Shown here: piece after piece, positions 27,984 through 37,373 of the stretch | Layout: every line of letters starts with the position of its first letter | Numbering within the stretch: position 1 is the stretch's first letter | From: a bacterium | GTDB lineage: Bacteria; Patescibacteriota; Microgenomatia; Levybacterales; UBA12049 | Assembly (NCBI GenBank): GCA_021824155.1 | Contig: JAKALN010000004.1 | Location: forward strand, 1-38,925 | Direction of reading: 5' to 3' | Length of the DNA stretch: 38,925 bases | Notes under the pieces: model-generated | Databases searched by the model: none | What the model saw: the letters and a program-made list of their open reading frames with translations, nothing else | Told to the model about the DNA's origin: nothing | Translations under genes and position numbers: made by a program

Positions 27984-28083
27984 AAAACTAAATTCTAAAT
28001 ACTAATATCTAAATCCTAAATAATGTTCAAAATTAAAAATTCAAAACGTTTAGGGTTTAGAATTTAAAAATTAGGATTTGCGA
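27984..28083. repeat. Heptad-periodic inverted repeat upstream of holB-like gene
   Basis: aaaacta aattcta aatacta atatcta aatccta ... ttcaaaa ttaaaaa ttcaaaa ... tttaggg tttagaa tttaaaa attagga. Confidence 0.85.
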
Positions 28084-28095
28084 CTGAAAGGAGAT

Positions 28096-28728
28096 ATGGA
28101 CAGTTTTTTAATAACAGGGCCAATCCGGCAAACAAAAGACTACGCATTTGATTTTTTAAAAAAAGAAAAAATAGACAAAATAGATATAACCGTTGTCGAA
28201 TCGGAAAAAGCAGTGGGAATTGCCCAGGTCAAAGAATTCCGGAAAAAAATTTATTTAAAGCCTTATAAAAGCGATAAAAAAGCGGTAATACTTAAGGCTG
28301 ATACGGGGCTGACAACCGAAGCCCAAAATGCGCTTCTCAAAGTTTTGGAAGAACCGCCAGGCAATACGGTTATTGCAATTCTTATTGAATCTTTGGAAAA
28401 TGTCCTTCCTACAATTATTTCAAGATGCAAAATAATATCTTTGGAAAAAGAAAAGGGAGAAAAAGATCTAAAGGAATTTGAAAATATTTTAACGTCTTTA
28501 AAAAACAGGGGAGTGGGGGAAAGGTTAAAACTGGCCCAGGATTATTCCAAAGACAGGGAAACTGCATTGGAATTTTTAAAAAATCTAATATTTGCATCGG
28601 AAAACTTACTAAAAAATGACAGCGGGCTTTCCCCGACGGTAAAATTACTCCAGGAAACTTATAAGGAAATTAAAAATACAAATACAAACCTGCGTCTTGT
28701 AATGGAACACCTGTTCCTTTCGATTTAG
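28096..28728 (+). CDS. DNA polymerase III delta-prime-like subunit (HolB-like AAA fragment)
   Basis: AVILKADTGLTTEAQNALLKVLEEPPGNTVIAILIESLENVLPTIISRCKII is the delta'/gamma-type signature; RBS AAAGGAGA before ATG 28096; no Walker A seen. Confidence 0.85.
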   Translation: MDSFLITGPIRQTKDYAFDFLKKEKIDKIDITVVESEKAVGIAQVKEFRKKIYLKPYKSDKKAVILKADTGLTTEAQNALLKVLEEPPGNTVIAILIESLENVLPTIISRCKIISLEKEKGEKDLKEFENILTSLKNRGVGERLKLAQDYSKDRETALEFLKNLIFASENLLKNDSGLSPTVKLLQETYKEIKNTNTNLRLVMEHLFLSI

Positions 28729-32617: not shown

Positions 32618-32740
32618 ACAGTTATTATATCACTATTAGTCAAACTATAAGTTTAATTTAACGAACAGCCGGCTTTTAAACCAATCGTGGTAAAATTTAT
32701 AAAACTCTAGCGTCAACCCCTGGGGTTGAGCGGACAAAAT

Positions 32741-33049: not shown

Positions 33050-33103
33050 CCCCCCCGGAAAATTTGGGTTTTGGAGACCGGTTTGTGTGCTACAATTGCT
33101 TAA

Positions 33104-33349
33104 ATGGCCGAAAGACTAAATCCGGGACCCGAACATTTAGGACTCGATCAATTACCGACTGACATACAAAACGCAAGTTGGGGAATTGTAAGATTTGCAT
33201 CCAGGATTCTTCCCGCACAAGGACAAACTCCGGAAGATACCAGAGAAGAACGTATGGCATTATTGGTTTCTCATTACACCGGAGAATTAGGAAAGCTTAT
33301 CCAAAGACTTGGAACCCCCGAAGAAATTACCGCGCTGTCTAAAATTTAA
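33104..33349 (+). CDS. Small hypothetical protein
   Basis: 81-aa ORF; TGCTACAAT (-10, 33091-33096) 7 nt upstream of ATG. Confidence 0.55.
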   Translation: MAERLNPGPEHLGLDQLPTDIQNASWGIVRFASRILPAQGQTPEDTREERMALLVSHYTGELGKLIQRLGTPEEITALSKI

Positions 33350-33565: not shown

Positions 33566-33585
33566 ACAAATTTGGAAGGGAAAAT

Positions 33586-33614
33586 TTGGTTTTGGAGCCG
33601 CACAGTAGTATAAT
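33586..33614 (+). promoter_or_regulatory. Promoter cassette copy 2: TTGGTT-17-TATAAT, 6 nt to ATG 33621
   Basis: aaaatttggttttggagccgcacagtagtataatcc; near-identical to copy 1. Confidence 0.72.
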
Positions 33615-33620
33615 CCGGCC

Positions 33621-33869
33621 ATGAGCAGAGAAGTTGATTCATCTAAGTGCACCGCAATTATGGAAGTAGGTCCAAGAGATAAGAGCGGACCCTATATCGG
33701 AATTTGTAAATATTTTGGCACAGGACATTGCTTGATGGACGAATATAAAGAAGGCCCACTTCCGCAAGACGCCAGGATAATCAGGGGCGAATGCAGAGCA
33801 GACTGGGAAGCGTTGAGTAAATTGGGAAAAATTCGCAAAGCCCTTTCAGATTTGGCAAAAAAGGGGTAA
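33621..33869 (+). CDS. Small Cys-containing hypothetical protein
   Basis: MSREVDSSKCTAIMEVGPRDKSGPYIGICKYFGTGHCLMDEYKEGPLPQDARIIRGECRADWEALSKLGK; four cysteines. Confidence 0.55.
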   Translation: MSREVDSSKCTAIMEVGPRDKSGPYIGICKYFGTGHCLMDEYKEGPLPQDARIIRGECRADWEALSKLGKIRKALSDLAKKG

Positions 33870-33925
33870 GATTGTCTCCTCCCAGAATTTAAAAAGCCGA
33901 TAGTGATATAATAAAAGCAATATTT

Positions 33926-34894
33926 GTGACTAATAACATAAGCGATCAGACCGAAGAATTTGTAAAAAACTTTAGAAACTTAGATGAGGAAATCATACCC
34001 TGGATCGATGATGACGCTGTAGGATTAAGCATAATCAAAAATTATCCTGAAAACTCTTTATTCGTTCCTGCAAGAAATCTCAACGGAGAACCAGATTCTG
34101 TAGCACTTATAAAAATTGGTTATACTAATAGTAAAAATATAGAAAAAGAAGAAAATAATGTAAATTTATTTATTTCTATTAGTAAAGTTAGCCGATATTT
34201 ACTTAACAATCACTGGAATTACGATTTCAAAGATCCTAAATCCCCAACAGAAGAATCTCTTAAAAAAAGTAAAGAATCAAAACAACCAATTGATTTAGAA
34301 GATGCCCAGTACCAATATAACTTACCCACAAAAAGATTTTATAACTCTGAAAAGAAAAAATACGTTGAAGCAGGAGAAATTGTTGAGGAGATATATAAAT
34401 TACATTTAAAAACACTTAGGGCTGTTGGTTTTAGGGCTAAAATTAAACTACAAAAACAAATAATCGAATATTCCTATCCAATTAATAAATTATTAATAAG
34501 GACTAATTTCATTTTATTTGGAAGAAAAATTAAAGAATCAAAAAACTTTTCAACAGGAATATTTGAAACATATTCCCACAATGACCTTATCGATTTAACA
34601 ACAGAAAAAACAAAAATTTTAGGTTCAGATTTTCCAATAACAAATCAAACGGCTAGGACGTTTGTAGCTTTTATTACAGTTTTATTTTTATTTAAAATTT
34701 ATAGTGGACGAGATATATTAGGTATTATGTATTTAGTTCAAAAAAGTAGTGAGAATAATCTATTATTGGCCTCTTTTACGGCCACTTTATTATTTATATT
34801 TGACAGAGTCATTCCTCATTTAATACTTTTATTAGTAAATGTACTTATTAGATTGAGACTCTGGTTTATGTTTTGGAAAATAAAATTATCCTAA
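33926..34894 (+). CDS. Hypothetical protein with soluble N-terminus and C-terminal TM segments (GTG start)
   Basis: 322 aa; RTFVAFITVLFLFKIY and NLLLASFTATLLFIFDRVIPHLILLLVNVLIRLRLWFMF hydrophobic segments; very AT-rich. Confidence 0.7.
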   Translation: MTNNISDQTEEFVKNFRNLDEEIIPWIDDDAVGLSIIKNYPENSLFVPARNLNGEPDSVALIKIGYTNSKNIEKEENNVNLFISISKVSRYLLNNHWNYDFKDPKSPTEESLKKSKESKQPIDLEDAQYQYNLPTKRFYNSEKKKYVEAGEIVEEIYKLHLKTLRAVGFRAKIKLQKQIIEYSYPINKLLIRTNFILFGRKIKESKNFSTGIFETYSHNDLIDLTTEKTKILGSDFPITNQTARTFVAFITVLFLFKIYSGRDILGIMYLVQKSSENNLLLASFTATLLFIFDRVIPHLILLLVNVLIRLRLWFMFWKIKLS

Positions 34895-34904
34895 AATATA
34901 ATTT

Positions 34905-35372
34905 ATGACTACAAAAAAAATCATTATCGATTCTACGGAAATGTCCAATACGCTTTCTTCATACGCAAAAAAACTAAAGGAATCTGGAGTATTAAGAGAA
35001 CAATTAGCATCAGCGTTAATCTATGCTGGATTAGCAGAATATTTTTGCGATGAATTTATTAAGGCTTTAATTGATCAATTAAATTTAAAAAACCAAAAAG
35101 GCTCTGTTAATCTAAAATCAAAAATAGTTTATAAAAACGAAAACACCAATTTAGAATATGCTTTAATCAAACTAAAATATATAGAGTATCCTGATAAAAA
35201 CGAAATAGAAGAAATAATAAAGATTATTAAAGATGCACGAAATAATTTATTTCATAATCTTATAAGGGCTGGAGAGAAAAAAATAAACTTAAGTATAGAA
35301 ATAATAAAAATTCAAGATTATACTCCACTTCTAAGAGATAGATTAGCTCAATCTCTCATAAAAACACTTTAA
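34905..35372 (+). CDS. HEPN-like helical protein (putative)
   Basis: 155 aa, helical, with IIKDARNNLFHNLIRAG matching the HEPN R-x4-H pattern; 10 nt after upstream gene. Confidence 0.55.
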   Translation: MTTKKIIIDSTEMSNTLSSYAKKLKESGVLREQLASALIYAGLAEYFCDEFIKALIDQLNLKNQKGSVNLKSKIVYKNENTNLEYALIKLKYIEYPDKNEIEEIIKIIKDARNNLFHNLIRAGEKKINLSIEIIKIQDYTPLLRDRLAQSLIKTL

Positions 35373-35417
35373 AGGCACTAGAATTACTTCATTTTTTCTG
35401 CTAAAATGGTTATATAA

Positions 35418-37373
<1,956 letters not shown>

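Follow-up and report, generated by a model that had tools for sequence, protein, structure and literature searches.

Proteins of the HEPN superfamily have a four- or five-helix fold, form dimers with a composite active site, and show metal-independent RNase activity. Their sequence hallmarks are an R-x4-6-H motif, a polar residue (most often N, D, or H) after the arginine, and an acidic residue in helix 2, and together these mark the active HEPN RNases (Anantharaman et al., PMC3710099). Restriction-modification (R-M) systems are associated with 16 or more HEPN clades, and divergent HEPN families often escape detection by curated profiles (PMC3710099). According to PMC12669027, Csx28 is a pore-forming accessory of Cas13b. 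The phage defenses of reduced-genome bacteria are poorly known. Here we describe two adjacent genes, ORF1 and ORF2, and our verdict from sequence comparison is that ORF2 is a predicted new member of an uncatalogued, unnamed HEPN family. The result would add to the superfamily a family that occurs in type I-like, II, and III R-M operons of reduced-genome bacteria and also outside such operons.

The window analyzed here is a whole contig of 38,925 nt from an 814-kb assembly (32 contigs; 99.5% complete), whose size and gene content suggest a reduced-genome bacterium of the Patescibacteria (CPR) type. Along the contig, core genes are followed by a run of small ORFs and then by ORF1, ORF2, and gyrB, the last three all on the forward strand (Table 1). 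The earlier note had placed the two ORFs 10 nt apart, and its coordinates, lengths, and gap were all exact. The G+C content of the pair is 26.6%, compared with 39.6% immediately upstream, 40.5% in gyrB, and 38% in the genome. In the 340 kb of the 814-kb genome that the composition statistics cover, the pair has a z score of -4.2 against windows of 1447 nt, ~0.1% of which are equally low, and among 295 ORFs sampled, ORF2 has the lowest and ORF1 the third lowest G+C and GC3 values. Two hand counts of G+C made previously (10/60 and 11/60) were reproduced, while that for gyrB (35/60) became 34/60 on recounting.

Table 1. Coordinates of the features of the ORF1-ORF2 locus in the window
Feature	Position	Strand	Basis
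~20-nt element copies	32734, 33058, 33351, 33579	+	
AT-rich insert, from last small ORF of upstream array to gyrB	33870..35417	.	Composition; variable gyrB 5' site in relatives
TATAAT-like -10 box, candidate promoter of the pair	33908..33913	+	12 nt before ORF1 start, read from sequence
ORF1, 322 aa, GTG start	33926..34894	+	ORF and hydropathy
ORF2, 155 aa, HEPN-like, uncatalogued family	34905..35372	+	Homologues, invariant R112/H117, acidic position 45, HepT register
Codons R112-N-N-L-F-H117, R-x4-H motif, predicted RNase active site	35238..35255	+	Sequence; alignment invariance
gyrB	35418-37373	+	

ORF2 contains the sequence DARNNLFHNL (R112-N-x3-H117), and the pattern R-[NDH]-x3-H arises in 0.3% of ORF2 shuffles. 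In an alignment of seven sequences with pairwise identities of 13% to 35%, the invariant residues were L83, R112, and H117 and no others, and with R and H as near-sole invariants, the pattern fits an active site. Position 45 is acidic (E or D) in all seven sequences (E45 in ORF2) and falls within the second predicted helix (residues 31 to 62) of a low-confidence model, the single-sequence AlphaFold prediction of ORF2, which is all-helical with a pLDDT of 43. The ORF2 family also has the polar residue after the arginine that characterizes the superfamily; this position is N in four of the seven sequences, including ORF2, K and R in two, and I in one. When the ORF2-family profile was compared with 13 HepT proteins of the same phylum, both R and H aligned in register, with profile-profile scores of 26.0 and 29.5 (none of 40 column-shuffled controls exceeded 17.2) and a probability of only 14% to 32%. 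The earlier note had called ORF2 HEPN-like, and at the level of sequence this call is upheld by the invariant R and H, the retained acidic residue, and the HepT register. We consider it very probable that ORF2 is a HEPN-type RNase.

The ORF2 family seems to be uncatalogued in Pfam, since none of the HEPN models of Pfam or NCBIfam hits ORF2, the Pfam models having been run on four core members. PF01934 (HepT) matched neither ORF2 nor three relatives, and a PF01934 search of genome G000 found nothing. The PADLOC model CARF_HEPN matched ORF2 weakly (E = 5e-4), and sequence searches of the PDB returned nothing relevant to it. Matches to PF06453 and PF16590 were below the cut-off and confined to one member and were put down to chance; those from Foldseek were discarded as noise, the query model being of low confidence.

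Four other members of the phylum (genomes G188, G709, G057, and G356) carry clear distant homologues of ORF2, and remoter ones also occur. The G188 homologue is 32% identical to ORF2 (E = 6.5e-12), and those of G709 (E = 6.3e-34) and G356 (E = 1e-20; gene broken by stops) were obtained in searches with profiles A1 and A2, respectively. By BLASTP, the G057 homologue is 24% identical to ORF2 over 92 residues (two-sequence E = 7e-4), and its 30% to 34% identity to the G709 and G188 proteins ties it to the family. Remoter profile matches were seen in G598 and G608, where they are the C-terminal part of a 1136-aa protein, and in G008 and G170. Like ORF2, the homologues are AT-richer than their own surroundings. 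Weak matches at loci L002 and L003 were rejected, one being a broken frame and the other lying within what we read as a core MurB-like gene. Pattern scans of genome contigs and viral contigs and tblastn searches of plasmids and phages yielded nothing. In G170 (L135; L134, 664 to 1389 and 1432 to 1983), a remote HEPN-like gene with RISVVH follows that of a 241-aa protein with the R-N-x-x-x-x-H-like sequence LRNKIHIH; the two may be tandem HEPN-like genes.

In three of the four other clear members, the HEPN gene is located inside or directly after R-M genes of type I-like, II, and III systems (G188, G356, and G709, respectively), a frequency that in our judgment is far above random. The order in G188 is an N6-adenine methylase with an HSDR_N domain, a DUF3800 protein, the HEPN homologue, and an HsdS-type specificity subunit. 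In G709, the HEPN gene lies between genes for a type III-like Mod methylase and a Res subunit, its start overlapping the Mod stop and its stop being 2 nt before the Res start. In G356, a C5 methylase and an R.HinP1I-family nuclease precede the broken HEPN gene. A HEPN-like gene of the remote member G008 is beside another DUF3800 gene; in some CRISPR loci, DUF3800 has been described as an accessory nuclease of the RNase H fold (PMC12669027). In G057, the HEPN gene is directly 5' of gyrB, after a gene for a 272-aa protein with one N-terminal transmembrane (TM) segment and no match to ORF1. Among the ORFs read, no R-M gene was present on the window contig or at the G057 locus. The association with R-M genes in three genomes supports a defense effector of the PrrC kind and is in line with the defense link suggested before these comparisons. 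By analogy, ORF2 is probably a phage-defense effector of a known general kind, and we regard a defense role for it as likely.

The broken G356 gene (L077, 8027 to 8601), which follows R.HinP1I-type restriction genes, is split into two frames, which would be expected if a costly or toxic gene is being lost or could reflect an assembly error.

ORF1 is an orphan protein, with no match in Pfam, NCBIfam, PADLOC, PHROGs, the PDB, plasmids, or viral contigs and no relatives across 82 genomes of the order. C-terminal TM segments had been proposed for it, and hydropathy analysis found a hydrophobic C terminus (residues ~279 to 317) and a shorter hydrophobic stretch near residues 243 to 256. The N-terminal part is predicted to be soluble, and the C-terminal region is likely membrane embedded through the former stretch and possibly also through the latter. 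The single-sequence AlphaFold model of ORF1 has a mean pLDDT of 43. ORF1 accompanies no other ORF2 homologue (loci of G188, G709, G356, G057, and G008), and these loci give no support for conservation of the membrane protein-HEPN pair proposed in the earlier note.

We compared the region 5' of gyrB in 60 genomes of the family. Gene content upstream of gyrB varies widely across the family, and unrelated genes gather at this site. A short ORF, which from our own reading of the sequences we take to be holB-like, is directly before gyrB in six genomes (G020, G064, G071, G031, G014, and G011), and its counterpart in the window is at positions 28078 to 28728, leaving ~6.7 kb of variable DNA, the pair included, between the holB-like ORF and gyrB. 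The variable DNA and the composition of the pair fit horizontal acquisition. That the pair looks horizontally acquired, as had been noticed from its base composition, agrees with how extreme this composition is and with the lack of a significant ORF2 relative in genome G054, of the same genus, and in nearly all 73 genomes of the family. Examination of the flanks revealed no tRNA marking the pair and no convincing repeats bounding it, just short, chance-like AT-rich matches. A conserved ~170-aa protein starting M[QVI]I[NK]FYP also recurs within the gyrB 5' interval, in three genera and differing gene orders (L008, L012, and L015).

The small ORFs upstream of the pair are separated by a ~20-nt element, GAAAATTTGG(T/A)TTTGAAACC, often with CCCC before it. 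The element is also present in the gyrB 5' interval of at least five other family genomes, namely, G043, G002, G072, and G058 and, in a weaker form, G057, where a degenerate copy precedes the HEPN gene, and copies were found in loci L010, L011, L012, L015, L016, L137, and L138. Most copies start 3 to 11 nt past a stop codon, and many lie ~42 nt, often exactly 42 nt, ahead of the next start; the final copies in L010 and L015 are not followed by an ORF start at this spacing. Elsewhere in the genome of the window, ~300 kb contained just four matches, all of them poor (up to four edits). The arrangement resembles an array of gene cassettes or else a shared intergenic repeat. An integron reading was rejected, as inspection of the ORFs near the arrays revealed no recombinase, and a literature search found no direct precedent for it. 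The array element GAAAATTTGGTTTTGAAACC was also considered as a boundary of the pair and was rejected for the window: its core was not found before ORF1 (P = 0.59 on shuffles), and the better full-length element score there stems from the TATAAT part. A second intergenic motif, a palindrome like TCAACCCCTGGGGTTGAG, is beside some copies of the ~20-nt element (window 32710 to 32733, L011, and L138). TATAAT-like boxes are found ~5 to 12 nt before starts in the window at 33060 to 33110, 33582 to 33625, and 33900 to 33926, a spacing that suggests that the small ORFs and ORF1 are transcribed without leaders; the position of the candidate -10 box of the pair likewise implies a nearly leaderless transcript.

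Our main reading is that ORF2 is a HEPN RNase acting in abortive infection, with ORF1 as its local regulator or sensor, and we assign this full statement a probability of about 0.4. ORF2 would be a small HEPN RNase with R112 and H117 as predicted catalytic residues, supported by E45, and would cut RNA as a second-line effector of the abortive-infection type, directed against phages and other invading DNA. When encoded in R-M operons, as in relatives, the HEPN protein would, by analogy with PrrC, be kept inactive for as long as the restriction system is neither inhibited nor overwhelmed. By analogy with PrrC-PrrI and the HEPN clades linked with R-M systems, the family would most likely supply a backup RNA-cutting suicide or dormancy response. 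Here, ORF2 is outside an R-M operon, and ORF1 may replace the restriction system as regulator, either silencing ORF2 or coupling its release to a membrane signal. The analysis establishes the two ORFs, their composition and homology, the conserved residues, and the R-M setting of relatives, and from there we infer RNase activity, toxicity, and abortive infection, as well as any functional link between ORF1 and ORF2; that ORF1 is a functional partner of ORF2 has, in our estimate, an even or slightly lower chance. Counting against the full statement are the lack of a curated HEPN match, the low HepT probability, the unreliable structure model with its noise-level Foldseek matches, the lack of R-M genes among the ORFs read on this contig, and the absence of ORF1 beside the other homologues.

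This last observation is also what one would expect if ORF2 were a defense-linked HEPN RNase and ORF1 a mere neighbor, the two being independent genes that met at the variable gyrB 5' site, with ORF2 otherwise regulated or left from a lost R-M operon. The different one-TM protein preceding the G057 homologue and the collection of unrelated genes at this site point the same way, and we take this explanation as a serious, if less than even, possibility. Set against it are the common strand, the 10-nt gap, and the same extreme composition of ORF1 and ORF2, and it is of these three features that the case for a unit consists. The operon-like arrangement of two genes would also suit a toxin-antitoxin or stress module concerned chiefly with persistence of the insert or with dormancy instead of phage defense, and toxin-antitoxin systems often contain HEPN toxins, HepT/MNT being the model (PMC3710099, PMC4621449). 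However, a family search showed ORF1 to match no nucleotidyltransferase or known antitoxin family, and homologues of ORF2 occur in R-M operons without ORF1; such a module is unlikely. ORF2 might instead have a HEPN or HEPN-resembling helical fold without RNase activity, for example, as a structural or RNA-binding accessory subunit. The missing curated match and the weak profile-profile probability would agree with this, but R, H, and one Leu as the sole invariants across seven highly diverged sequences argue against it, and we consider it very improbable.

A bolder form of the main reading is that the pair makes up a two-gene system not described before, with a membrane protein that detects infection and then sets a HEPN RNase free. 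This RNase would come from a HEPN family of R-M operons, would have left its restriction system, and would now travel as cargo into a gyrB-linked array of small genes in reduced-genome bacteria; we regard this reading as rather unlikely. Control of ORF2 by ORF1, if demonstrated, would make ORF1 a novel type of HEPN-effector regulator.

Among the known systems, HepT (PF01934) resembles ORF2 in its similar size, its all-helical prediction, and an Rx4H motif in register (RNNLFH in ORF2 and RNxLVH in HepT). ORF2 differs in having no match to the HepT HMM, and the Rx4HxY motif with an MNT partner is not seen in ORF2/ORF1, there being no Tyr two residues after the His and no nucleotidyltransferase partner. 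With the R-M-associated HEPN proteins (PrrC, AbiU2, Ymh, ApeA, and other clades; PMC3710099), it shares R-x4-H, the polar residue after R, the upstream acidic residue, and relatives embedded in R-M operons, whereas it matches none of their Pfam models, has no R-M gene beside it in the window, and is missing the ATPase domain of PrrC/RloC. The STY4199-like and Plim_2023-like HEPN-TM fusions (PMC3710099) and Csx28 (PMC12669027) likewise bring a HEPN-type protein and membrane segments together in what may be one functional unit; at the present locus, a separate orphan gene encodes the membrane segments, with no homology shown to either. Finally, although no integron integrase or attC was identified here and ORF2 has no sequence match to solved structures, the locus shares with the integron-cassette HEPN protein (PDB 3jrt, listed in PMC3710099) a small HEPN gene as mobile cargo.
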